27,111 nt of DNA from IMG/VR virus record IMGVR_UViG_3300022688_000072, positions 1-27,111 of that record; one strand, given 5' to 3'. Positions 236-22,788 of this stretch are shown piece after piece. Source of the DNA: a virus. Numbering within the stretch: the stretch's first letter is position 1; every line of letters begins with the position of its first letter. Both the position numbers and the translations under genes were made by a program. The notes below the pieces were generated by a model. That model did not search any database, was not told the DNA's origin, and saw nothing but the letters and a program-made list of their open reading frames with translations.

Positions 236-2599
236 CTAAACAACCAATTTGTAGAACTTTGCACCCTGTTCACTCTTCCGTTTACCTACATCTTTGTTCT
301 CAACTTTCACTAATCTCACTTGGTCACTATGCACCAACTCTTCCTCTGCTAGGCTATAGTTATATACTTTTCCGGCTAAAACCATTCTCACATAAGCGGC
401 GGACACCATGTTCTTTTCTTTCAAATACTTCTTATATAGTGGTCTGTCGTACTTTTTTACATTCGTTAGGTAGTACTCTTTTTCTTCTACAATATGCTTA
501 ATTTTGTCCAAAATGCGTCTTGAGTCACCGCTCACCCTGTTCATAGAGATGCTTTCTGACAACGGTTTGGCCATTGTTTTGACATAGAATTCGACTATGT
601 CCCAGGCCAACTGCATCTCTTCAATACCTATGCTTATGTCGGTGTTGCGCAACCGTTTTGTCTTACAAATCCGCAGTGTCAAGGCCATTTTGATTGCCAG
701 ATACCCAACACCCGCGTACATGGTTTCCACGGTTTCGTCTAGCATTCCACGGTTCATTTGGGCGTCGTACCAAGCGATTTTGCGCTCGTTGTACTCATCC
801 GCTTCAGCCGTCATACCAACGCCGATGTGTGGGCGGCTTTTGATTTCTTGCGTATAATCGTCATCATCGTCGAAACTGAGGTCTGTCGGCAGTTGTTTGC
901 GCCATTGCTTTACGAGTGAATCGTGCCAAGTTTTCACGTCCTTATGTATCCATGCAGCCGACGACTGGCGGTTGCGCACACGCTTTTCATTACACAAGAC
1001 AAACATGGTGCGCCGCAGTTTACCGCCGCTGGCTTGCAGATATGCAGCTTGCGGGTCTTGCCCAAACTGCGTGGAGTGCGTGCTACACGACACCATAACG
1101 TTGAAGGGGTGATGCACCTTCTTACGATCTTTGGCGGTTTCCTTTATGCCGCGCTGCCAGTGTAGAGTGCCCACTCGGTCAAACAGGGCATTGTTGAGCA
1201 GTGTGACCTCGTTCTGCATGTGTTGGACTGGGTTGTACTCGTCTAACAGCCCTATCACCAGCCCATCATTTGCGAGCAAGGCTTCTTCCAATCCAGCCAT
1301 GCTGGCAAAGTTGTTGCTGTAGTAGATACCCAGTTCATCGCAATAATGGGTCAATACCTTGATGATGGCGTTTTTGCCTGCCCCAGCATTGGCGATAAAA
1401 GCGTAGTTCATGTTGAGAAACACCGGGTCATCATCAGCAAGGTAGAAATGCCGGTTGCCCAATATCTGCACGACCGCAAAACTGCCGAAGAGTGACAAAG
1501 TTTTCAGTGGGTATTTAGTCACCTTTTGCAACTGGTGTGCAACGGCGCGTTGCACGGCTGGCAGCCGTTCTATCAGTGCATCAATTTGTTGCAGTTCTTC
1601 CTCGGTTTTTGGTGGCAGCTCTGGGGCTGGCTCTTCTTCGGGCAGTTTGTCAAATACTTTTTCAATTGGTAATGTGCTACCAGCACGTGGATTGTCCCAC
1701 CCAGCGTCTTGCGCCCATTGAAACAGCGTTGCCGGCGTCACGCGCCCCTGCGGCTTGAATGTTTGCCATTTGTCCATTTGGTCATTGGGGTCGTAGTTGT
1801 CAACAAATTGTGACCACTCGTCCCACATATCGTAGCAACGTTCTGAAGCATCGGATACACCAACATCTTCTGCCGCCAACCCGGTAAACCGAAAGATCAT
1901 ACCAACCTTGATCCATCGATGCCGGTCATTGTTGTTCGGTATATACTCCAGGGCGTTTGCCAAATCATCGAGTACTTCTTCGGCTTGTTCTTTGGTTTCA
2001 AAGGTAAGGGTGTTAGACTCGCGCTGGGTTTTTTCCCAGTCGCCACCGTGGATTGGCAGTAGTTTCTTTTTGATCAGTGTGGATAAACACCGGCGTCCGT
2101 TGCCACTACCCTTTCCTGTCACCGTGAAGAACCGGCCGGTGGCATAGGCTTCAACACCAGTGCCATTGCTACCCATTGCGTTGAAAACTTTTCCCTTGCC
2201 TACGATGTGCAAGCCTTTTCCGCTTGGGCTGGGTTCTGCCCACGCCCCTCTTGGCGGCTGAATTGCTGCCAACTCAGGGTTTTCTTCTATGGCATCAAGG
2301 TCTACACCCTGCAAGTAGGTGCCGTCATCTAGCGGGCCTAATGCAATGGCGACGCCAGAAAAACCCCGAGGGTCGTTTTGCAGCACATTCCATGCTTCAT
2401 CAAATGCCACCAGCTGGTCCCGGTCTTCGGGTGTATCTAAGTCACCCTTACGTGGCTGGCCATTTGCATAGTACGGAATCTTGCGGGGTTTCGTTGCGCC
2501 ATTGTGTTTTAGCTTGTAGAGCAGCCAGACTGGCTGCTCTTTCAACCAAGTTGGTGCATAAAAATCAGGGTTGCGCTGGGTTTTGGTTTGTGCTAGCAT
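236..2599 (-). CDS. PrimPol (AEP primase-polymerase) fused to DUF3987/SF3-like helicase
   Basis: A 787-residue predicted replication protein. The N-terminal archaeo-eukaryotic primase domain shows all three motifs: D100-x-D102 (GVDLD), SGKGLH at 126-131 and E150 before an AYATGRFF stretch. A PriCT-like helical domain follows at roughly 205-300 (WIKVGMIFR, WDEWSQF). A P-loop ATPase domain has Walker A ANAGAGKN at 403-410 and Walker B LLDE at 451-454. A lysine-rich, possibly winged-helix tail ends the protein. The layout resembles phage NrS-1-type PrimPols and DUF3987 proteins, which prime and unwind DNA at phage origins. Walker A has N410 where S or T is usual. The start ATG is preceded by AAAGGCA. 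It is the second gene of a leftward operon behind the RHH gene, next to candidate origin iterons. Confidence 0.85.
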   Translation of the reverse strand: MLAQTKTQRNPDFYAPTWLKEQPVWLLYKLKHNGATKPRKIPYYANGQPRKGDLDTPEDRDQLVAFDEAWNVLQNDPRGFSGVAIALGPLDDGTYLQGVDLDAIEENPELAAIQPPRGAWAEPSPSGKGLHIVGKGKVFNAMGSNGTGVEAYATGRFFTVTGKGSGNGRRCLSTLIKKKLLPIHGGDWEKTQRESNTLTFETKEQAEEVLDDLANALEYIPNNNDRHRWIKVGMIFRFTGLAAEDVGVSDASERCYDMWDEWSQFVDNYDPNDQMDKWQTFKPQGRVTPATLFQWAQDAGWDNPRAGSTLPIEKVFDKLPEEEPAPELPPKTEEELQQIDALIERLPAVQRAVAHQLQKVTKYPLKTLSLFGSFAVVQILGNRHFYLADDDPVFLNMNYAFIANAGAGKNAIIKVLTHYCDELGIYYSNNFASMAGLEEALLANDGLVIGLLDEYNPVQHMQNEVTLLNNALFDRVGTLHWQRGIKETAKDRKKVHHPFNVMVSCSTHSTQFGQDPQAAYLQASGGKLRRTMFVLCNEKRVRNRQSSAAWIHKDVKTWHDSLVKQWRKQLPTDLSFDDDDDYTQEIKSRPHIGVGMTAEADEYNERKIAWYDAQMNRGMLDETVETMYAGVGYLAIKMALTLRICKTKRLRNTDISIGIEEMQLAWDIVEFYVKTMAKPLSESISMNRVSGDSRRILDKIKHIVEEKEYYLTNVKKYDRPLYKKYLKEKNMVSAAYVRMVLAGKVYNYSLAEEELVHSDQVRLVKVENKDVGKRKSEQGAKFYKLVV

Positions 2600-2653
2600 A
2601 GTGTTGCCTTTGCTGGTGTGGTCCTGGCGAGGCGGTTTAATCTAACCTCCCTT

Positions 2654-2681
2654 AAGCCCGGTTCTCACCGGGCTTCTTTTT
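2654..2681 (+). terminator. Stem-loop with T tract, terminator-like on + strand
   Basis: A perfect 9-bp stem (AAGCCCGGT / ACCGGGCTT) with a TCTC loop is followed by CTTTTT. It reads as a Rho-independent terminator for rightward transcription, although no rightward gene precedes it, so it may block antisense transcription. On the minus strand the same hairpin lies between the RHH gene and the primase gene. The RHH stop codon at 2665-2667 falls inside it, and no T tract follows in that direction. Confidence 0.6.
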
Positions 2682-2853
2682 GCACGTCATAAAAGTGGTC
2701 GAGCGACTGGCGTGTGAACTCTGCCATAGAGATTCTCATGCGCTTCGCCATGCGCCGCATTTTCCGCTTACGCCGGTCTCCTAGATGCGTAATAATCACC
2801 CCACCTCTTGGTGCACTGTTGTTTCGCGTGTACTGCGGGTTTTTGTTTCGCAT
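2665..2853 (-). CDS. Small ribbon-helix-helix (Arc/CopG-like) DNA-binding protein
   Basis: A 62-residue very basic protein. A short beta-like strand (GGVIITHLGD, 18-26) is followed by two helices, DRRKRKMRRMAKRMR and SMAEFTRQSLDHFYDV. This matches the RHH plan of a strand for DNA contacts plus two dimerising helices, as in Arc or CopG-type repressors. The start is the internal ATG at 2853; the longer open frame upstream only mirrors the acidic gene on the other strand. It is the first gene behind a strong leftward promoter and is cotranscribed with the primase-helicase. Autoregulation of the divergent promoter region is inferred, not shown. The family call is from sequence pattern only. Confidence 0.6.
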   Translation of the reverse strand: MRNKNPQYTRNNSAPRGGVIITHLGDRRKRKMRRMAKRMRISMAEFTRQSLDHFYDVQKEAR

Positions 2854-2889
2854 ACCTTGCAACCTGTTGTATTTTGGCCAAAGGGAAAT

Positions 2890-2918
2890 ATTATAACACA
2901 GGGGTTGCTTTCTTGCAA
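2890..2918 (-). promoter_or_regulatory. Leftward sigma70-like promoter
   Basis: Read on the minus strand: -35 TTGCAA (2918-2913), a 17-nt spacer and -10 TATAAT (2895-2890). A TG one base upstream of the -10 makes it extended. The expected start near 2883 leaves a leader of about 30 nt before the RHH start codon. This is the clearest promoter in the window. Confidence 0.8.
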
Positions 2919-2933
2919 TTGGCGTGCTAGGCT
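2905..2933 (+). promoter_or_regulatory. Rightward promoter candidate, back to back with the leftward one
   Basis: TTGCTT (2905-2910), a 17-nt spacer and TAGGCT (2928-2933) with an extended-10 TG at 2925-2926. It is weaker than the leftward promoter. It would drive the acidic protein gene at 2987. The two -35 boxes are only 2 bp apart, so the two promoters probably compete for polymerase. Confidence 0.45.
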
Positions 2934-2944
2934 GGTTTGGCGTG
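2919..2944. promoter_or_regulatory. Candidate operator: direct repeat TTGGCGTG
   Basis: The 8-mer TTGGCGTG occurs at 2919-2926 and again at 2937-2944, 18 bp apart start to start. The copies flank the rightward -10 box. RHH repressors often bind as tandem dimers to short repeated sites, and an RHH gene is the first gene of the divergent operon. Binding is inference. Confidence 0.4.
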
Positions 2945-2986
2945 TGGCATTGGGTCACGCGCTGAAACAATTGGAGACTTCCAAAC

Positions 2987-3415
2987 ATGTCGCTTGAACA
3001 AAAAATCGAAGAGCTGACCGCCGCCGTTACCACGCTGACGGAAACCCTTTCTTCCGGTGCAATGCCGGCACCGGCGGAAGAGCCCGAGGAAAAAGCCGAA
3101 GAAGAGGAAGAGCCCGAGGAAGAAGCCGAAGAAGAGGAAGAGCCGCCAAAGAAGAAAAAGGCTCCGGCCAAGAAAGAAGCCCCCGCCAAGAAAGCCCCCG
3201 CCAAGCGTGGCCGTAAACCCACCGGCCCGACCATGGCCCAGATCCTGGACAAGCTTCGAGAAGTCAAGGAAGAGCTCGGCGCTGAAACCGTGAAGGAGCT
3301 GTTCGAAGAGTTCGAAGTGAAGAAGGCGTCTGACCTTGCCGAAGAGGACTACAAGGAGTTCCTCGAAGCGTGCGACGAGGCCCTCGAAGAAGCTGGCGAC
3401 GAAGACGAGGAGTAA
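2987..3415 (+). CDS. Acidic/AKP-rich protein with small C-terminal helical domain
   Basis: A 142-residue protein of striking composition. Residues 1-25 look like a short coiled coil (LEQKIEELTAAV). Residues 30-55 are almost all E with P and A, and residues 56-80 are lysine/proline/alanine repeats (KKAPAKK) resembling histone H1 tails. The rest is a compact helical domain with an acidic end. That C-terminal part resembles a short domain seen at the end of several phage DNA-metabolism proteins (a helix, then an ASDL turn, then DYKEFLEAC). The family is not identified. The charge pattern suggests nucleic-acid or protein binding. It has a GGAG site at 2973-2976 and is the first rightward gene of the divergent pair. 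Confidence 0.75.
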   Translation: MSLEQKIEELTAAVTTLTETLSSGAMPAPAEEPEEKAEEEEEPEEEAEEEEEPPKKKKAPAKKEAPAKKAPAKRGRKPTGPTMAQILDKLREVKEELGAETVKELFEEFEVKKASDLAEEDYKEFLEACDEALEEAGDEDEE

Positions 3416-3701
3416 GCGACGGTGCTGCCAGGGATGGCGGTTTGCAATCCGTAATCCGGCACAGCATCACCAGTGTTGACCCACGCGGTCGTGCATTGAT
3501 CAATCGAGGTGGTACAATGGCATCACTACTCTTATGGTCGGGGTCCGCAAGCTGCGTCGCAAGAATCGGGACTGAGTGAGCGCCATCTGCTCTAGTGGTG
3601 GGACTCCCCGTGAGAGCGCGGGTGGGTGACGGTGAGCCTTGAGAACCGTGACAGCCGGGAAAGACCGGCCCTCCTTTTATTTCTGTCCAAGAGAAAAAAC
3701 A
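3416..3701 (+). other. Intergenic, apparently structured leader region
   Basis: No long gene is visible. TGGTACAAT at 3510-3518 looks like an extended -10 without a convincing -35. Stem candidates downstream are ATGGC (3517) with GCCAT (about 3581), GGGGTCC (about 3540) with GGACTCCCC (about 3601), ACGGT (3629) with ACCGT (3645), and GCCGG (3654) with CCGGC (3665) followed by CCTCCTTTTATTT. A 20-codon open frame starts at 3517 with a GAGG site. The region could be a small RNA, an attenuator or a leader; none is established. Confidence 0.35.
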
Positions 3702-3908
3702 ATGTCGAAAAATACCATACTCAAAAACGATGTCGTGTATTGCCCTCATTGCAGAGCACAGCAAGGAGAAGAATCTGTAGAAGACTACATTGAGTATTCA
3801 GCCGACGGCAAAAAGGCAGCCGCAGTCTATGTTTGCTGGTGTTGCAACCGCTTTTTCAAAGTTGTCCCTATAGGCAACGATAAATACGAGGTTCACAAGA
3901 TACCGTAA
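3702..3908 (+). CDS. Small zinc-ribbon-like protein
   Basis: A 68-residue protein with two Cys pairs, CPHC near residues 14-17 and CWCC near 47-50, about 30 residues apart and separated by a beta-like segment. This is the layout of a zinc ribbon. Such small phage proteins often bind nucleic acid or host enzymes, but no specific family is recognised. The start ATG at 3702 follows a leader (TTTCTGTCCAAGAG...) that is nearly the same as the leader of the lipoprotein gene at 4508. The stop overlaps the next start (TAATG). Base composition is more AT-rich than the genes after 4500. Confidence 0.7.
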   Translation: MSKNTILKNDVVYCPHCRAQQGEESVEDYIEYSADGKKAAAVYVCWCCNRFFKVVPIGNDKYEVHKIP

Positions 3909-4123
3909 TGGACATGGTGCTAATAACCATACTAATGTCTATAGCTTTTAGCGCTGGCGCGATGATCGGTGTAGTGCTGGTCGGCTATTTTAACGGCTCA
4001 ATAAGCAGGCTTTCAATGATCTTTACAGCAATCATGAGTGTGTTGACCCTGGTCCTTCTCATCCTGATCGGGATTGGTATGTGGCTTGATTATTGGGGTC
4101 TTGCGATTTGGCGAAAAACCTAA
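3908..4123 (+). CDS. Small two-TM membrane protein
   Basis: A 71-residue hydrophobic protein with two predicted membrane segments, at about residues 4-27 (ITILMSIAFSAGAMIGVVLVGY) and 38-62 (IFTAIMSVLTLVLLILIGIGMWL), joined by a short loop containing one arginine. It starts at a TAATG overlap with the zinc-ribbon gene, so the two are probably translated together. Function is unknown. A two-TM topology is compatible with a pinholin or holin, but no endolysin lies nearby and there is no other support for that. Confidence 0.65.
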   Translation: MDMVLITILMSIAFSAGAMIGVVLVGYFNGSISRLSMIFTAIMSVLTLVLLILIGIGMWLDYWGLAIWRKT

Positions 4124-4431
4124 ACCTAGACAACGTTGACCTGTCGTTAGAGCTAGAACGGCTACGTGATAAGGGCTACTCGCAGGCACAAGCAGCAGAC
4201 GAACTGGGTATAACAAGACGACATGTCCAAACAGTGAGCGCAATGTTCGATATGCGTTGGCCCCGGTTTAATTACAAGGTAAGCTTTCCCGCAAAAGTTC
4301 TTACCCTTGCCGCTCTTGAACTCGGTATGCCCAAAACACGATTAGCTCGAATATTGGGCATAGACCATACCTCCATAATCAGTTGGGAAAAACGTTACAG
4401 TGAATCTTTCAGAAATAGAATGACCTGCTGA
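4108..4431 (+). CDS. Protein with two helix-turn-helix motifs
   Basis: A 107-residue protein with two HTH-like segments. The first is at about residues 17-45 (KGYSQAQAADELGITRRHVQTV) and the second at about 68-97 (MPKTRLARILGIDHTSIISWEKRY). The second resembles the DnaA-domain-IV-like or transposase-like pattern of a recognition helix after LGIDHTSI. It is probably a phage transcription regulator. No ATG start exists. TTG at 4108 is chosen because GGGG lies 9 nt upstream; TTG at 4093 is the alternative. It overlaps the end of the membrane protein gene by 16 nt. Confidence 0.65.
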   Translation: MAKNLNLDNVDLSLELERLRDKGYSQAQAADELGITRRHVQTVSAMFDMRWPRFNYKVSFPAKVLTLAALELGMPKTRLARILGIDHTSIISWEKRYSESFRNRMTC

Positions 4432-4436
4432 AGCCA

Positions 4437-4457
4437 GGGGAGGTGCAAATCCTCCCC
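4437..4457 (+). other. GC-rich stem-loop upstream of lipoprotein gene
   Basis: A perfect 7-bp stem (GGGGAGG / CCTCCCC) encloses the loop TGCAAAT. It lies between the stop of the HTH gene and the lipoprotein gene. No T tract follows. The loop resembles a tRNA T-loop, but no D arm, anticodon arm or matching acceptor is found. Confidence 0.6.
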
Positions 4458-4507
4458 CAGCCCCACCTTTCCAAACAAAACGGCTCTTTCTTCCAAGAGG
4501 AAAAGCA

Positions 4508-5023
4508 ATGAACTTCAACACTGTCACCGCCGCCGCGCTGGCCATCTCCCTGTCCGGCTGCGCAATCACAAAGCCGCCGGGTCGGACGGTCGAGAGCCGC
4601 CCCAGCAACCCCCTTGCCTACACCGCGGACGTGGCGCAAACGGCGGACGCTGCCACCGCCGTTGCCGCGACTGTGCTGCCTGGATTTATGGAGTTGAATC
4701 CACTTGGGCTTATGCTGGTGCCGGTTAAGTTCCGCATGGCAGCCATGGCCGAGAACAACATGCCCGAGGACTGCGAGTCGGCCCAGAAGGCTATTGCCAT
4801 CGGCGGCCTCGGTCCAGCGGCGTGGGGCGCCGTGCTCTTCGCCGGCGGCACCGTGGCCACCGCGGGCGCGGCGTTGGTGGCCGCACCCACTGCCCTGTGG
4901 GCGTCTGGCCTGCTCGACAAGAGCGCCGAGGCGCGTTGTGCGGACGCCCGCCCGCTCACCAAGAAGGAGCGCGCTGCGCTGACTGAGAGGATGGACGCTG
5001 ACCGTGCGATTTGGGGGCTGTGA
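4508..5023 (+). CDS. Putative lipoprotein with hydrophobic hairpin
   Basis: A 171-residue protein. The N-terminus is a lipoprotein signal sequence ending in the lipobox LSGC (Cys18). A mostly soluble stretch follows, then a strongly hydrophobic Gly/Ala-rich part at about residues 100-138 that could form one or two membrane helices, and a charged C-terminus with DARPLTKKERAAL. Function is not recognised. A phage lipoprotein may act in superinfection exclusion or envelope alteration, but this is only a possibility. GAGGAAAAGC precedes the ATG. The same signal sequence recurs at 7113 in a truncated form. Confidence 0.7.
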   Translation: MNFNTVTAAALAISLSGCAITKPPGRTVESRPSNPLAYTADVAQTADAATAVAATVLPGFMELNPLGLMLVPVKFRMAAMAENNMPEDCESAQKAIAIGGLGPAAWGAVLFAGGTVATAGAALVAAPTALWASGLLDKSAEARCADARPLTKKERAALTERMDADRAIWGL

Positions 5024-5066
5024 TGAAAGACTACAAACCTGCCAACTCAACCACAGGAGAGACGGC

Positions 5067-5585
5067 ATGACGATTATCAACTTGACACAACACGCCGCTA
5101 CCCCCGCCCAAAAGGCGGCGGGTGTCGTCGATGTCCACAACCGCGAGGAACTGTCCCTCTTGCTGACCGTACAGGTCAGCGGTGAGTATGGGTTCGCAAT
5201 CCTGTCCAAGGAGGGACAGGAAGTGGACCTGGACATCCGCGTCGGACAAATCTTGTCCGAGTTCGTCTTCCCCGCCGTCACGGCAGAGCAGCGCCAGTAT
5301 CTGGCCAGCATCTACGCCGCTGGCCAAAACGACTATCACGGCGACCCCGATGCGTGGGCGTCGGGGCTGCCCCTCACCGAGCTGAGCCAGATCGGGAAGC
5401 CCACCCTTAAGGCTATGGTCGGCGGTTTTGCGCCGCTGACCGCCCGTCTGACCGAGCGGCTGAAAGAGATTGGGGTCCAGCCCGTGGTCGCCTTGAGCGA
5501 CCGCGTATCCAAGGAAGCGACGCTTGCAGACGGCACCGTCCGAAAGACTCAGGAGTTCATTCATTGCGGGTTCTACGAACTGTAG
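5067..5585 (+). CDS. Conserved phage hypothetical (NLTQHAATP family)
   Basis: A 172-residue soluble protein starting MTIINLTQHAATPAQ. This opening, followed by a GVVDV strand, is recognised from many uncharacterised proteins of phages of Gram-negative bacteria. The pattern of strands and helices (GVVDV, VVALSDR, FIHCGFYEL at the end) suggests a small alpha/beta fold. No catalytic motif is evident. The start is the ATG at 5067 with AGGAGAG 6 nt upstream; an earlier in-frame start at 5004 would overlap the lipoprotein gene and lacks a ribosome site. Confidence 0.75.
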   Translation: MTIINLTQHAATPAQKAAGVVDVHNREELSLLLTVQVSGEYGFAILSKEGQEVDLDIRVGQILSEFVFPAVTAEQRQYLASIYAAGQNDYHGDPDAWASGLPLTELSQIGKPTLKAMVGGFAPLTARLTERLKEIGVQPVVALSDRVSKEATLADGTVRKTQEFIHCGFYEL

Positions 5586-5602
5586 GCCCGCATCGACAAA
5601 CA

Positions 5603-5622
5603 GGCTGCGCACTCGCGCAGCC
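5603..5622 (+). other. GC-rich intergenic stem-loop
   Basis: A perfect 8-bp stem (GGCTGCGC / GCGCAGCC) with an ACTC loop lies between the stop at 5585 and the GGAG site of the gene at 5639. Only two T residues follow, so it is not a standard terminator. Confidence 0.75.
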
Positions 5623-5638
5623 TTACCGGAGTAAAGAT

Positions 5639-5887
5639 ATGAGTCAGCAGCATTACGTCCTCCGGGGCGCCATCAGCGGCACCCCGTTCGCATCGCAGTA
5701 TGGTATGCCGTCTGACTTCGGCTTCCCCGTGGAGTGGGATGGCGAAGAGTGCTATTGGTCGGTTGAGACCATCACCCCGCCGCGGCGCCACTGCCCCGAG
5801 TGCGGCGCCGCACCGCATGCGGCGCCGAACCCCCCAAAGGGCACCGATGTTCGGTGCCCAGAATGCGACACGAGGTGGATCGTATGA
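5639..5887 (+). CDS. Small protein with C-terminal zinc ribbon
   Basis: An 82-residue protein. The first half contains a short beta-like segment (HYVLRGAISG) and an aromatic stretch (WDGEECYWSVE). The second half has two CPEC knuckles about 20 residues apart, typical of a zinc ribbon, and ends right after the second knuckle. GGAG lies 7 nt before the ATG. The stop overlaps the next start (ATGA). No family is recognised. It is one of several small Cys-pair proteins in this accessory stretch. Confidence 0.7.
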   Translation: MSQQHYVLRGAISGTPFASQYGMPSDFGFPVEWDGEECYWSVETITPPRRHCPECGAAPHAAPNPPKGTDVRCPECDTRWIV

Positions 5888-6108
5888 AGACCGACCCCAA
5901 CCAGCGCCACGCGGTGGCGCTCAAGACCATCCGCTGGGCAGCGTTCCCGCTGCCTGTGTGGCGCACCGAGCCCGGCATGGATGGCCCGTCAGGCGATGTG
6001 TGGTTTGACAACTCCGGCCGCCTTCGCGCGACCGGCGGAGCCAACCAGCCTGCTACAAAATCAGATGAACGGCCGTACTACGGCCCCGTGGAGGACCACT
6101 CCGGATGA
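5884..6108 (+). CDS. Small hypothetical protein, N-terminus similar to next gene
   Basis: A 74-residue protein beginning MKTDPNQRHAVALKTIRWAAFP. The following gene begins MNTDPRARQFRAIKTVERALFP, so the two share an N-terminal module and are probably old duplicates. The remainder is polar, with a WFDNSGRLRATGG segment. The start overlaps the previous stop and the end overlaps the next start, both as ATGA, which indicates translational coupling. Function is unknown. Confidence 0.65.
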   Translation: MKTDPNQRHAVALKTIRWAAFPLPVWRTEPGMDGPSGDVWFDNSGRLRATGGANQPATKSDERPYYGPVEDHSG

Positions 6109-6506
6109 ACACCGACCCAAGAGCCCGGCAATTCCGGGCGATCAAGACCGTTGAGCGCGCCCTGTTCCCCGAAAAGTGGGGCACGGGGAAGATCTTTCCT
6201 CTTGTGGACCTGACCCCGCAGGAGGGGCTCACCGTCTGGCGCGCGCCGGAGTCGCAGCCGCTGACCGAAAATGGCGGCACTATGTACACGTACCCGGCTC
6301 TGATCTATGCGGAGCCGGAAGTCATCCACCTGGAGCGCGATAGCGGTCTAGAGTGGATGGCGAGCGCGTGGGGCGGCAAGCCCCGAACGTGCTTGTGGAC
6401 GAAGTACATGCGCTTCGATCTCGACAGCGCCATGTACCGCTTGGCGCTGGCGTATCCGGGAGTGCGGATCGAAGTCCTCCCGGATGTTGATCCGGACGAA
6501 GACTGA
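6105..6506 (+). CDS. Hypothetical protein, paralogue of preceding gene at N-terminus
   Basis: A 133-residue soluble protein. Residues 1-22 match the start of the preceding gene product. The rest contains several aromatic strands (TMYTYPALIYAEPEV, WMASAWGGKPRTCLW) and an acidic end (PDVDPDED). No motif of known function is seen. It is coupled to the gene before it by ATGA and followed at once by a 7-bp hairpin. Confidence 0.7.
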   Translation: MNTDPRARQFRAIKTVERALFPEKWGTGKIFPLVDLTPQEGLTVWRAPESQPLTENGGTMYTYPALIYAEPEVIHLERDSGLEWMASAWGGKPRTCLWTKYMRFDLDSAMYRLALAYPGVRIEVLPDVDPDED

Positions 6507-6513
6507 CCACCCC

Positions 6514-6530
6514 GCCCGGCTTGGCCGGGC
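6514..6530 (+). other. GC-rich intergenic stem-loop
   Basis: A 7-bp perfect stem (GCCCGGC / GCCGGGC) with a TTG loop, 8 nt after the stop codon at 6506 and just before the AGGAG site of the gene at 6547. No T tract follows. Confidence 0.75.
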
Positions 6531-6546
6531 ACAATAGGAGAACCCT

Positions 6547-6867
6547 ATGCCACAAGCTCCTTCGTACATACAAGCTAGGACCTGCTCGGACGGCGATGGC
6601 TTATGCTGGCCCATCCCGCCCGAAGCAGGATTCTATGTCTTGTCAGCCCCTGGGGGGCACCGCTGCGCCCTGTACAAGAAGAACAAACCGACCCCGGTTC
6701 AGCACGGGATTGGGCAGCAGTACGATGGGCGCGCCACCCACGTGCCGAAACTGCTGGAAAACGCCCAGCTTGAGTTCGTTGCAGAGGTTGGCCCCACAGG
6801 GGGTTTCTTTTCAGAGCATGCGGCAGTTGATGCGGCGCTGCTACCACTGCGCGCCGCAGATGCGTGA
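6547..6867 (+). CDS. Hypothetical protein
   Basis: A 106-residue protein with a good AGGAG site 7 nt upstream of its ATG. It has a central Tyr/Lys-rich segment (ALYKKNKPTPVQHG) and a C-terminal stretch (LEFVAEVGPTGGFFSEHAAVDAALLPL) with a beta-alpha look. Two cysteines (residues 13 and 20) are spaced CSDGDGLC. No known family is recognised. Confidence 0.65.
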   Translation: MPQAPSYIQARTCSDGDGLCWPIPPEAGFYVLSAPGGHRCALYKKNKPTPVQHGIGQQYDGRATHVPKLLENAQLEFVAEVGPTGGFFSEHAAVDAALLPLRAADA

Positions 6868-7112
6868 CTGGGGTCGGATCGCCGTCCCGGCATGACACCC
6901 TTTCTCATTTTCGTCCGCGGTCAGTATCTAGGCGTCATCAACGCCGAACTGGACGGGGTTAGGCGGCGAGTGCCCGTCCGGCGACTATCGACAAAACCCC
7001 GCCAGTGCGCGGCGCTGACCTCCTCTTGTCGTGACCGACTCCAGGCAGCGCGCGTGCACCGTTCGCCCCACGATACGGGGCACAACCCAACCCAATCTGA
7101 GAGACCATTGGC
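6868..7112 (+). other. Poorly explained stretch between small genes
   Basis: An open frame starts at the ATG at 6892 (MTPFLIFVRGQYLG) and runs in frame into the lipoprotein leader at 7113. Only its first 25-30 residues look protein-like. From about 6960 another frame reads more naturally (GGECPSGDYRQNPAS) and stops near 7017. A short or decayed gene is likely. A GCCCC/GGGGC stem-loop (7065-7081, loop ACGATAC) precedes the GAGAG site of the next gene. Confidence 0.4.
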
Positions 7113-7194
7113 CATGACCATGAACTACAACGTCGTTTCAGCCGCCGCCGTGCCGGTCATCTCTCTGTCCGGCTGCGCGGTGTGGCGGTTGTGA
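7113..7194 (+). CDS. 26-residue lipoprotein leader peptide
   Basis: A very short gene (26 residues) that is almost only a lipoprotein signal: a run of Ala/Val, then the lipobox LSGC with Cys21, then AVWRL and stop. GAGAG lies 9 nt upstream of the ATG. Its product would leave a 6-residue acylated peptide. Its DNA and protein sequence match the leader of the lipoprotein at 4508 (MN-aromatic-N, SAAA, ISLSGCA). It may be a truncated copy or a real mini-lipoprotein. Its stop overlaps a GTG start of the next gene (GTGA). Confidence 0.55.
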
Positions 7195-7595
7195 TAAACA
7201 CAATCCTCATCCACCAACTCCCGCGCGCGGAAGATGGCACGCAGCAGTTCGCCGTGTGGGATGCCCGTAGTAGGTGGGACGGCTGGAAGCTAGGGTACTG
7301 CGTGGAGCCTGGACACTACGCGGTACACGCCGGAATCGTGCCGTTCGAGATTACCTCAGCAGGAACCTTCGACGACTGCACCCACTACCGACTAGAGAAC
7401 CCCGACCATCAAAACGTGTACGTCACGTGCCAGACCGTCGAGCCCGACGGCACGCCGACGCCAGAGCAGGACGGCGGACCGGTCCCCGTGAGCACGGTAT
7501 CGACGATGTATCTAATGATGGGCCTGCTCATCCTTGTCGCCGTAAGACTGCGGCGTAAAACTAACCTTGTAGAAAGCAAATGGCAAATCAAATGA
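7191..7595 (+). CDS. Tail-anchored hypothetical protein
   Basis: A 134-residue protein with a soluble N-terminal part holding aromatic residues and three cysteines (GYCVEPGHY, DDCTHY, VTCQTV), a proline/glycine-rich linker at about 88-105, and one C-terminal membrane helix (TMYLMMGLLILVAVRL) followed by arginines and lysines. The GTG at 7191 overlaps the stop of the lipoprotein leader (GTGA); GTG at 7182 is also possible. The pairing of a tiny lipoprotein with a membrane-anchored partner suggests an envelope role. A Rz/Rz1-type spanin is not supported, because the gene arrangement and membrane topology differ. Confidence 0.6.
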   Translation: MINTILIHQLPRAEDGTQQFAVWDARSRWDGWKLGYCVEPGHYAVHAGIVPFEITSAGTFDDCTHYRLENPDHQNVYVTCQTVEPDGTPTPEQDGGPVPVSTVSTMYLMMGLLILVAVRLRRKTNLVESKWQIK

Positions 7596-7876
7596 CAGAC
7601 CTAGTGCCCTTGAATTACCAACCATATTTTGAAGATAAGGTTAAAGACTTGACTAAAAAAGAAAAAGCCGTTTTTATAAGAATCATAAGAGAAAGCAAAC
7701 GAGACCAGATTGAAAGACTATTGAGAGCCATAAAAAACAAAGATAATGAAATGGCGAATGGTATGACCTACAGAATGAAACCAGAAGACACGTACAGGGC
7801 CAGAAAAATGGTCATCATTCTTAGCGAAAGTTTGAAAAACGAAGAAGACCTGGTAAGGGTTATGTACCCCTATTAA
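7580..7876 (+). CDS. AT-rich small hypothetical protein
   Basis: A 98-residue Lys/Glu/Met-rich, probably all-helical protein. It reads as two or three helices (KDLTKKEKAVFIRIIRES, QIERLLRAIKNKD, ARKMVIILSESLKNEEDLV). It overlaps the previous gene by 16 nt from the ATG at 7580, or by an ATGA from the ATG at 7592. Base and codon use is markedly AT-rich compared with both neighbours, which suggests recent acquisition. No family is recognised. Confidence 0.65.
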   Translation: MANQMTDLVPLNYQPYFEDKVKDLTKKEKAVFIRIIRESKRDQIERLLRAIKNKDNEMANGMTYRMKPEDTYRARKMVIILSESLKNEEDLVRVMYPY

Positions 7877-7924
7877 AAAGAGAAACCTACAGGCATTGAG
7901 AAGCCCTAACCCTTGGAGAGACAG

Positions 7925-8392
7925 ATGAAAGAATTGCAAGATCCTGGCCTGTGTGTAGAGCAGAGGTATTTCAACGCAAAGACGGTTTTGGGGCGCATGC
8001 TGGACATGGGTCGCATGCTCGAATGCCCCACCCAGTCGGCAAAGCGTGAAGCCGTTGGGGCGGTTCTGCGGGAAACTGGTGTTGACCTGCGCCCCATGTT
8101 GGCGTTTGCAATGGCGGTCGGTGAGCAGTGGCTGGGTCTGTCGGCGTTGCGCGCAGAGCTTGGCGTGGCATCGGAAGACGCGATGAACGAAATCCTGAAG
8201 TCGTTAGGGCTTCAGGACCGCATCGGTGGTGAGTGGGTGCCCGCGAAGTTCAGTAAAGGGCATTTTTGGCGCAATGGACCCCGGCTCGATAGCACGACCG
8301 TGAGCTACAATGGTGTGGAATGGAATCTGGCCGAAGTTCGCGCGCTTCTCGACGAAACCGACAGCGAAGAGGACGACGACGATGCCGTTTAA
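7925..8392 (+). CDS. Putative regulator with antirepressor-type C-terminal domain
   Basis: A 155-residue protein. Residues 1-70 are helical (KTVLGRMLDMGRMLECP, LRPMLAFAMAVGEQWL). Residues 73-110 read LSALRAELGVASEDAMNEILKSLGLQ...GEWVPA, which follows the helix pattern of the winged-helix domain at the C-terminus of phage antirepressors (KilA-C/ANT type: short helix, LG.S, N..L...GLQ, then W.P). The end is strongly acidic. The start is the ATG at 7925 with GGAGAG upstream. A role in repressor control is plausible; the family match is by pattern only. Confidence 0.55.
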   Translation: MKELQDPGLCVEQRYFNAKTVLGRMLDMGRMLECPTQSAKREAVGAVLRETGVDLRPMLAFAMAVGEQWLGLSALRAELGVASEDAMNEILKSLGLQDRIGGEWVPAKFSKGHFWRNGPRLDSTTVSYNGVEWNLAEVRALLDETDSEEDDDDAV

Positions 8393-8765
8393 GGAGGGCC
8401 ATCCGGGCAGACCAAGCGCCTTCACGACGCGCCTTCAGGACGGCGCAGTGTTCGAAGAGATTGGGGTTGTCGTGCTGGCCTTGCTCCCCGAGGAGGGCAA
8501 GCCGCGTTCAGACTGGAGTGTTCAGATTGAGCGCCGATGTTGCGGCAAGATCGAGACCATCAGGGTCAAGGCCCTACGCTCGCGCCTGACGAGCGTTGTC
8601 CACCGCCCAAGCATGTTCCCGCACATGTGCCGCAGCTGCGCAGACGCGGCAAAGAAGGATGGCACTATGCGTTCGGCGCAGTCCGCGAAAAGCGCCTGGC
8701 GCCCGACCAGCGCGGCCTGGGGCGCCAGGTGGAGTTATTATGCTGACGGAGGTAATAAGCCATGA
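8382..8765 (+). CDS. Possible zinc-binding small protein, C-terminus probably frameshifted
   Basis: A 127-residue open frame starting inside the end of the previous gene. It contains RRCCGKIETIRVKALRSR and later MCRSCADAAKK, a spaced Cys arrangement like the metal-binding part of small HNH or recombination-related phage proteins. From about 8655 the open frame loses coding character (SAKSAWRPTSAAWGARWSYY), while the -1 frame reads WHYAFGAVREKRLAPDQRG and stops at 8746, before the GGAGG site of the next gene. A missing base or real frameshift near 8650-8662 is likely, so the true product probably ends at 8746. Confidence 0.55.
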   Translation: MPFKEGHPGRPSAFTTRLQDGAVFEEIGVVVLALLPEEGKPRSDWSVQIERRCCGKIETIRVKALRSRLTSVVHRPSMFPHMCRSCADAAKKDGTMRSAQSAKSAWRPTSAAWGARWSYYADGGNKP

Positions 8766-8983
8766 GCAGCTTTTTATGTGAGCATTGCGGCGCGATGGCC
8801 ATGGACACCAGCCGCGGCTGTGAGCACCACGAGCCAAATGTGCCGACACATGCGCTGACGACAGACGAGATGCGCTGGTTGATAGACGCGCGCAATCGCG
8901 GGGCGCTGATTGATAGGTTAGACCTAGACAGCCTGGAGCCGTCGCTCAGGGCTCTCGGGATTTCGCTGGACATGCCTTCATGA
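8762..8983 (+). CDS. Small protein with N-terminal zinc knuckle
   Basis: A 73-residue protein with CEHC at residues 6-9 and a second ligand set CEHH about 12 residues later, suggesting a small zinc knuckle. A helical part follows (TTDEMRWLIDARNRGALIDRLDLDSLEPSLRAL). GGAGG lies 9 nt before the ATG. The start also overlaps the annotated stop at 8765 (ATGA). No family is recognised. Confidence 0.65.
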   Translation: MSSFLCEHCGAMAMDTSRGCEHHEPNVPTHALTTDEMRWLIDARNRGALIDRLDLDSLEPSLRALGISLDMPS

Positions 8984-9028
8984 TCGGCAGCCGCCCGGTA
9001 GCTGTCACCACATAGACTCCGAGCAATC

Positions 9029-9403
9029 ATGAACCCATACAAATCTAGCCCCAAATACGACCCGACTGGCCTGTGGTACGATTCATTCATAACCAATGCT
9101 GGCACTGCATGGATCGTGCACTTCGGTGACGAATACATTGCACGTGTCGAGAATGAGCAGCAGTGCAAGAACATACTGCACATAGCGGAGGTCGTGATGA
9201 AAATAGATAAACAGCCAGAAGACGCCACCCATCGCGGTCCAGCCGGCTATTACAGGCGTGTGGATAACCGATGGTTTCGCCATACTCCTTGTGGTTGGGT
9301 ACGGTCTGACATTGACGAGAGGTTTTTAAATGAAATACTTTATACGGGCAGTGCAAATGATGATAGAGATGTTGCATGCAGAGATGCGCCAACACAAAGG
9401 TGA
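9029..9403 (+). CDS. Hypothetical protein
   Basis: A 124-residue protein. The first 55 residues look like a compact alpha/beta domain (TAWIVHFGDEYIARVENEQQCKNILHIAEVVM), and the second half has a YYRRVDNRWFRHTPCGWVRS segment. The last 25 residues overlap the start of the next small gene by 74 nt and look less conserved in composition. No functional motif is recognised. Confidence 0.6.
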   Translation: MNPYKSSPKYDPTGLWYDSFITNAGTAWIVHFGDEYIARVENEQQCKNILHIAEVVMKIDKQPEDATHRGPAGYYRRVDNRWFRHTPCGWVRSDIDERFLNEILYTGSANDDRDVACRDAPTQR

Positions 9404-9482
9404 TCCGAGCAAATACCATAAGGTGTTGAACTTGCTTGAGCAAGTTCAAATGACACTTGAGGAAATCGATGCCGAACGGTAA
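9330..9482 (+). CDS. 50-residue helical hypothetical protein
   Basis: A short open frame of 50 codons with AGAGG 8 nt upstream of its ATG. The product is Met/Glu/Gln-rich and should form two amphipathic helices (RAVQMMIEMLHAEMRQ and VLNLLEQVQMTLEEID). It overlaps the end of the previous gene and the start of the DUF2800 gene by 14 nt, which fits translational coupling into the replication block. Function is unknown. Confidence 0.55.
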   Translation: MKYFIRAVQMMIEMLHAEMRQHKGDPSKYHKVLNLLEQVQMTLEEIDAER

Positions 9483-15191: not shown

Positions 15192-15341
15192 CGTTTTAAC
15201 CACACTTTACCAGACCCCCTCCTAGCCTGCCAGCGGCTTACTACCCCCTATACCCCTAGCCCTGCGCCCGTTGGGGCCGCACAGGCCGTCCTGTGCGGCC
15301 GTAGGCTTGCATTGGCTGCTGCTGTGCCTTAAACTTGGCGC
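15192..15341 (+). other. Intergenic region with 11-bp hairpin, candidate cos/pac neighbourhood
   Basis: A gene-free gap between the replication and packaging blocks. C-rich runs (CCCCTATACCCCTAG) precede an 11-bp perfect hairpin at 15275-15300. It lies immediately upstream of the HNH and terminase genes, where cos or pac sites often occur. No cos site can be identified by sequence alone. Confidence 0.4.
15275..15300 (+). other. 11-bp GC-rich stem-loop
   Basis: The stem GGCCGCACAGG pairs perfectly with CCTGTGCGGCC around a CCGT loop. It is the longest perfect hairpin noticed in the window. GTAGGC follows, not a T tract. It separates the helicase from the HNH gene and may end transcription, protect the 3' end or mark a packaging element. 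Confidence 0.8.
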
Positions 15342-21913: not shown

Positions 21914-22788
21914 TGGACGAACAAGTTAAAACGATTCTTGATGCGGTCGGTGATTACGTCGATGAGCAAGTAGCCGAAATCTTTGCGGGTCTTAAAGACC
22001 TTCGCAGTCAGCTAGGGCTCCCCCGCGAAGAGTTTGAGAAGACCCGCAGCGATCTGCTGGTCCGTATTGACGACCTGAACCACCGCTACGAGATCCTGCG
22101 CAGCACCGTACCTGCCGACCGTGGTGAGGAGATCGCTGAGCTACGTGGGCGGCTCCTGCAGTTGGAGCGTACCCCTGGCCCGCCCGGTAAGGACGGCAAG
22201 GACGGCGCCTCGCCCGATGTTGAGGACGTGGTGAACGTCCTCGTCTTGCGGCACGCTGATCGTCTCCGGGGCGAGCAGGGGCCGGTGGGCGCGCAGGGTC
22301 CCGTCGGCGGCACCGGCGCTCCGGGAAAGGATGCGGACCCCAACGTAGTTGCTGACAGTTTGTTCGAGCGCCACAGCGCGGAGCTTCGCGGTGAGCCGGG
22401 CCAGTCGGTCTCTCGCGATGAGGTGGTCGCTAAGCTGAAGCAGGACAAGGAATTTCTGAAGGTCATCCGCGGCGACAAGGGCGAGCCTGGCCAATCGGTC
22501 TCCCGCGATGAGGTTGCCGCCGAGCTGAAGCAGGACCAGCAGTTTCTTGAGATCGTCCGAGGTGAAAAGGGAGACCCCGGTCAGTCGGTCTCTCGTGACG
22601 AGGTCGTCGCCGAGCTGAAGCAGGATCAGCAGTTCCTTGATACCGTCCGCGGCGAGCGCGGACCCGCAGGTGAGCGCGGTTCCGCCGGTCCTTTGCCCGA
22701 TGTCGCCGCCCTGATCGAAGCCTCGATGGCGGAGTTCCGGCAGCGCGAGATGTCCGAAATCAAAGCCGTGTTTGCCCGCTATGCCTAA
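21913..22788 (+). CDS. Collagen-like fibre protein
   Basis: A 291-residue protein. Residues 1-85 look like a coiled-coil trimer stem (LDAVGDYVDEQVAEIFAGLKDLRSQL). Collagen-type Gly-X-Y runs follow (TPGPPGKDGKDGAS, GEQGPVGAQGPVGGTGAPGKD). Then come three tandem 30-residue units, each with a short Gly-X-Y segment (RG.KGEPGQ) and a helical segment (SVSRDEV.AELKQDQQFL). Alternating collagen and coiled coil is typical of phage fibre shafts. Its place right after the portal suggests a head fibre or vertex fibre as well as a tail fibre. Not assigned further. Confidence 0.75.
   Translation: MDEQVKTILDAVGDYVDEQVAEIFAGLKDLRSQLGLPREEFEKTRSDLLVRIDDLNHRYEILRSTVPADRGEEIAELRGRLLQLERTPGPPGKDGKDGASPDVEDVVNVLVLRHADRLRGEQGPVGAQGPVGGTGAPGKDADPNVVADSLFERHSAELRGEPGQSVSRDEVVAKLKQDKEFLKVIRGDKGEPGQSVSRDEVAAELKQDQQFLEIVRGEKGDPGQSVSRDEVVAELKQDQQFLDTVRGERGPAGERGSAGPLPDVAALIEASMAEFRQREMSEIKAVFARYA
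22393..22662 (+). repeat. Three tandem 90-bp (30-residue) repeats in the fibre gene
   Basis: Units start at 22393, 22483 and 22573, exactly 90 bp apart. Each encodes EPGQ or DPGQ, SVSRDEV, then a LKQD...FL helix. Copies two and three are more alike at residue level than either is to the first, which suggests recent duplication or recombination. Confidence 0.85.

Follow-up and report, generated by a model that had tools for sequence, protein, structure and literature searches.

The overlapping divergent promoters described here probably form the control point that separates the two arms of a replication module resembling that of Casjensviridae. In this view, a ribbon-helix-helix (RHH) protein would autorepress the primase operon and keep the two arms balanced, with a tentative further layer of control by an antisense RNA. 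The DNA that we analyzed, referred to below as the window, is the 27,111-base virus record IMGVR_UViG_3300022688_000072, probably a fragment of a tailed phage. A search for DNA-level relatives of the window among phage records found none. The sole close relative with an RHH-type gene that we found is L004, a 25-kb viral contig reached via the nuclease gene, which is 64% identical. The conservation footprint of the control region is thus that of two sequences, the window and L004.

Gene arrangement and overlapping divergent promoters

The left arm of the window consists of the RHH gene and the primase/helicase gene, both leftward (Table 1). The right arm carries, in order, the gene for a charged protein, a 5.6-kb stretch of small genes, and genes for a DUF2800 nuclease, an Enc34-type SSB, PolA, an SNF2-type helicase, the terminase large subunit and the major head protein. 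All right-arm genes with an identified function lie on the + strand, and the replication genes precede those for terminase and capsid. Replication genes are therefore present in both arms, with the primase on the left and the nuclease, SSB, PolA and helicase on the right. The gene order around the promoters is the same in L004: the primase gene is next to an RHH-like gene of 58 aa, and the divergent promoter region separates the latter from the charged-protein gene.

Table 1. Positions of genes and sequence elements in and around the control region
Feature	Position	Strand	Description
Primase/helicase gene, 787 aa	236–2599	-	Second gene of leftward operon; PriCT_2 E 3e-14, phrog_3022 E 8e-47
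RHH gene, 62 aa	2665–2853	-	First gene of leftward operon; homologue at same L004 position
Charged-protein gene, 142 aa	2987–3415	+	First gene of rightward operon; 77% identical in L004; also compared with L007
Leftward promoter	2890–2918	-	-35 TTGCAA 2918–2913, 17-bp spacer, -10 TATAAT 2895–2890, extended -10 TG (TGTTATAAT); -10 and spacing kept in L004
Rightward promoter	2905–2933	+	TTGCTT 2905–2910, 17 bp, TGC-TAGGCT 2925–2933 (TGCTAGGCT); weak by consensus, conserved in L004
TTGGCGTG direct-repeat pair	2919–2944	+	Copies 2919–2926 and 2937–2944, 18 bp apart; proposed operator, unsupported
Strong intrinsic terminator	2654–2682	+	AAGCCCGGT-TCTC-ACCGGGCTT-CTTTTTG; antisense to RHH–primase junction, in RHH stop region; conserved in L004
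Candidate antisense promoter	2571–2599	+	TTGCGC-17-TGC-TAGCAT (TGCTAGCAT); -10 on primase start codon; weak
Predicted antisense RNA, about 77 nt	2606–2682	+	Primase leader and RHH 3′ end; from candidate promoter and terminator
GGAGGTTAGA	2641–2650	-	Just after hairpin on sense mRNA, no close start codon behind; GGAGGTCAGA in L004

Several further observations concern the wider arrangement. The small genes at 3415–9029 are without counterpart in L004, where the charged-protein gene almost directly precedes the nuclease region; within this stretch, early in the right arm, lies the gene for a double-HTH protein (4093–4431). A near-identical contig, L005, begins at window position 4905, so the control region is outside its coverage. 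Collagen-like repeated segments (GQSVSRDEV units, with internal repeats about 80% identical) occupy 22390–22650. The primases of L004 (1243–3636) and of the window share the C-terminal helicase half (34%), and their N-terminal halves show little similarity except QRNP at residues 8–11. Alignment of the primase against viral contigs again returned L004 alone.

The leftward promoter scores 10/12 on the sigma70 consensus, higher than any other site in the window. A perfect -10 combined with the extended TG occurs here and nowhere else in the 27 kb, and about 0.03–0.07% of random 133-bp sequences contain a site as good (probability < 0.001). The rightward promoter matches the consensus at 3/6 and 3/6 positions plus the extended TG. 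From these elements, leftward transcription would start at about 2883 and rightward transcription at about 2940. The two -35 boxes are separated by only 2 bp (2911–2912) in the window and by 3 bp in L004. Since the promoters overlap, they should not both hold RNA polymerase at the same time. The first-pass annotation had described interleaved divergent promoters with -35 boxes 2 bp apart, the leftward strong and the rightward weaker; both statements agree with our matches, and the geometry is kept in L004. A search for the promoter pattern in viral contigs gave no match.

Alignment of the intergenic regions of the window and L004 reached a score of 49, compared to a maximum of 32 in 2000 shuffles, and included both promoters and their interleaving. 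The blocks identical in L004 are AATATTAT at the leftward -10 and, in the rightward promoter, TTGCnTTC at the -35 and GGCGTGCTAGG at the extended -10; the 17-bp spacers of both promoters are kept as well. The body of the RHH coding sequence, in contrast, shows hardly any conservation at the DNA level (local score 22). The promoter block therefore appears to be under a constraint of its own. Separately, we observed an inverted repeat, TTGGA-GACT-TCCAA, at 2970–2983, which contains the ribosome-binding site of the first rightward gene and was not seen in L004.

The probable RHH-type protein and candidate operators

To characterize the 62-aa protein we combined family searches with structure prediction. 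The search of family libraries with the window protein found no curated-family match, and a direct search for relatives in phages and viral contigs found none. Its L004 homologue, which is 34% identical, gave matches below the cut-offs to NikA-like (E 0.002) and RelB-like (E 3e-4) proteins and, also weakly, to TraJ. A PADLOC search returned nothing relevant. The AlphaFold2 monomer model, made from a two-row alignment, is of mediocre confidence (pLDDT 70). Helices at 26–39 and 43–61 are well predicted and show the arrangement of the two RHH helices in a short protein; the monomer model is without a beta-strand, and a short helix (18–22) stands in its place. In the VIA-align comparison the leading matches were AtaR, PutA, CopG, MazE6, TacA, AmrZ, ORF56, CdbA, MatP and Arc (Z 4–5.5). 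Nearly all the best structural matches were RHH proteins, which ranked ahead of homeodomains and other folds. The Foldseek list was likewise rich in RHH proteins, with weak E-values (best 2.1) and the plasmid copy-control protein ORF56 as the top match. The predicted structure thus makes an RHH fold likely, in line with the earlier assignment of the first leftward gene to this type.

The TTGGCGTG copies flank the rightward -10, as had been pointed out when they were proposed as a direct-repeat operator. The repeats are there; their operator role was rejected. Pairs of this kind turned up in 12.6% of Markov sequences and, among actual 133-bp segments taken from the window, in 11.7% (P about 0.12), and the second copy is absent from L004, the one close relative in which its conservation could be looked for. 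Conservation of the first copy is accounted for by the extended -10 element of the rightward promoter, with which it overlaps; an operator role is not needed. We also rejected the palindrome TTTGGCCAAA at the leftward start (2873–2882): the window contains 28 such 10-bp palindromes where 27 are expected, and it is absent in L004. Comparison of the two sequences named no operator shared by the window and L004, and no iterons were found in the gap between the divergent genes.

The RHH gene immediately precedes that of the primase and has the same orientation, which would also suit a protein that serves mainly as an origin or primase accessory factor, similar to RHH relaxase accessory or partition proteins, with the intergenic region as a replication origin and promoter control as a secondary role. 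NikA-like proteins and TraJ, RHH accessory proteins of conjugation that the L004 homologue matches weakly, point the same way. However, the gap is free of detectable iterons and relatives carry HTH/Cro-type repressors at this position, and we regard an accessory role as improbable.

A terminator antisense to the RHH–primase junction

The strong terminator at the RHH–primase junction has a counterpart at 3719–3748 of L004, where it is the sole strong one on either strand in the 15.9 kb examined. The background of strong terminators is 0.069 per kb of strand, a statistic made after the terminator had been seen. No rightward gene upstream that would need a + strand terminator was identified. The U-run corresponds to the last RHH codons (QKEA), and these codons are conserved despite the low identity of the proteins. 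At the place of the candidate antisense promoter, L004 has TTGCGT-17-TACCAT. The score of this promoter is equalled by 12.8% of 160-nt stretches of the window, and its CAT is forced by the primase start codon. The predicted fold of the 77-nt RNA is more stable than those of shuffled sequences (z -3.5), mainly owing to the terminator. An Rfam search gave nothing at the gathering threshold, and the sub-threshold matches on the hairpin resemble generic terminator matches. Among other loci, a terminator in the same orientation stands right before the primase in L038, behind a different 85-aa ORF; none was present in 17 others, all with regulator–primase gaps no longer than 50 bp and two of them (L007 and L159) nearly identical to each other. 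Together, terminator and candidate promoter suggest an antisense RNA at the RHH–primase junction, like lambda OOP or pMV158 RNAII.

A competing explanation, which we consider a serious one though somewhat short of an even chance, is that the + strand hairpin acts as a sense-strand element (a processing site or translational coupling) or as a guard against stray antisense transcription. The hairpin loop contains the RHH stop codon, the conserved GGAGGTYAGA follows on the sense strand, and the antisense promoter is weak. On the other hand, the run CTTCTTTTTG, which is useful on the + strand alone, is kept where the protein otherwise is not, and none of the relatives carries a terminator here on the sense strand. 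We also considered translation from an in-frame ATT that follows the conserved GGAGG, but discarded it, as L004 lacks a corresponding frame.

Other inverted repeats were noted in the window. A perfect 11-bp inverted repeat with a 1-nt centre (AGAGCAGCCAG-A-CTGGCTGCTCT) lies at 2518–2540, in the primase coding sequence about 60 bp past its start; none is expected by chance, as judged from shuffles. Further 11-nt inverted repeats occur at 9426–9449 and 15275–15300, with loops of 2 and 4 nt, one of them just before the DUF2800 gene.

Proposed control and comparison with known systems

We propose that the leftward operon is repressed by its own RHH protein, bound within or close to the stretch where the two promoters overlap. 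Such autorepression would limit the primase, by analogy to CopG, which limits RepB, and to ORF56, for which a like effect on ORF904 has been proposed. Overlap of the promoters would couple the arms: occupancy of one promoter would alter the other, and the arms would be balanced, not chosen between. More tentatively, the antisense RNA, reaching from the primase start to the terminator in the end of the RHH gene, may pair with the RHH–primase mRNA and act as a post-transcriptional brake.

The first-pass annotation had seen a compact switch that chooses between the replication operon and accessory or structural transcription. Its core, a divergent control region with a promoter-proximal DNA-binding gene, holds and recurs in many relatives, but the binary choice does not. 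Since replication genes sit on both arms, a choice of replication versus structural transcription is unsupported, and autoregulation of the primase and its balancing against the other genes fits the data better. A bistable CI/Cro-like switch, with RHH binding selecting the leftward or the rightward programme, could draw on the overlapping promoters, on the regulator in one arm and on a second DNA-binding gene, that of the double-HTH protein, early in the right arm. We nevertheless find such a switch unlikely: the double-HTH gene lies within the stretch absent from L004, the direct repeats are at chance level, and no integrase was seen in the window.

In the Burkholderia phage AH2 (Casjensviridae), the genes for the Cro-like gp77 and the primase gp78 face away from gp76 and from the genes for exonuclease, SSB, PolA and helicase (PMC3483164). 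The window has the same module (AH2 gp71–gp78; BcepNazgul), with a small regulator and then the primase one way and, in the opposite direction, a small gene of unknown function followed by those for exonuclease, SSB, PolA and helicase. Gene content and order, compared with AH2 and Erythrobacter phage R22L, place the window in this module, with regulator–primase divergent from small gene–DUF2800 exonuclease–SSB–PolA. A small gene and primase diverging from the other arm are also found in AhaSv, SS2019XI, JS26, FoX4, R22L and Carli, in the contigs L007/L159, L161 and L038, and in MW202679. KL1, Halfdan, Pavpe01, Axy18 and others have a related layout that includes MazG, Sak4 and a repressor-like gene of 62–74 aa. 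Most small genes of these relatives match HTH/repressor families or each other's unnamed families, several of them weakly; the 58-aa gene of L101 shows no sign of DNA binding. By sequence reading, Paracoccus phage R3 (L014 7770–7985) has an apparent unannotated HTH-like ORF directly before its primase. The layout is thus already known and common in siphoviruses, and the site is a standard control point of such modules. The window and L004 have RHH there in place of the HTH/Cro-type regulator, and this regulator type is new at the site. In AH2 the regulator is Cro-like and its gene lies 36 bp from that of the primase, whereas the window has RHH, a 65-bp gap and the antisense terminator, and its primase belongs to another subfamily.

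A more specific reading, which we offer tentatively and hold to be possible rather than probable, is plasmid-type dual copy control of a phage primase operon. An RHH repressor at the overlapping promoters and a cis-antisense RNA of OOP/RNAII topology would together replace the Cro-type control of related siphoviruses. If true, a siphovirus module has exchanged its Cro-like regulator for a plasmid-style RHH repressor and antisense RNA and retained the divergent control point, which would link the early regulation of phages with copy-number control in plasmids.

Three known systems are close in layout. In pMV158 copG-rnaII-repB, an RHH repressor gene precedes the replication gene and the countertranscript ends in an intrinsic terminator at the junction (PMC4485353). 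The window shares the order of RHH gene, replication gene and junction terminator; however, pMV158 is a plasmid with a rolling-circle initiator and a proven RNAII of 48 nt, whereas the window has a phage primase, divergent promoters and a predicted RNA. In pRN1 orf56-orf904, an RHH copy-control gene is co-transcribed with a primase/polymerase/helicase gene (PMC3869888). The pairing of an RHH gene with a primase is the same, and ORF56 is the Foldseek match named above, but pRN1 is an archaeal plasmid lacking an overlapping divergent phage operon, and the likeness of the proteins is one of predicted fold. Finally, in lambda cII-oop-O the OOP promoter lies at the start of the replication gene and the terminator in the 3′ end of the regulator gene (PMC3985674, PMC5869508). 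The regulator is followed by the replication gene in both, and the antisense topology predicted for the window is that of pO-oop-tO, although CII is not an RHH protein, O has no primase role, and OOP has been demonstrated by experiment where the window RNA is predicted.
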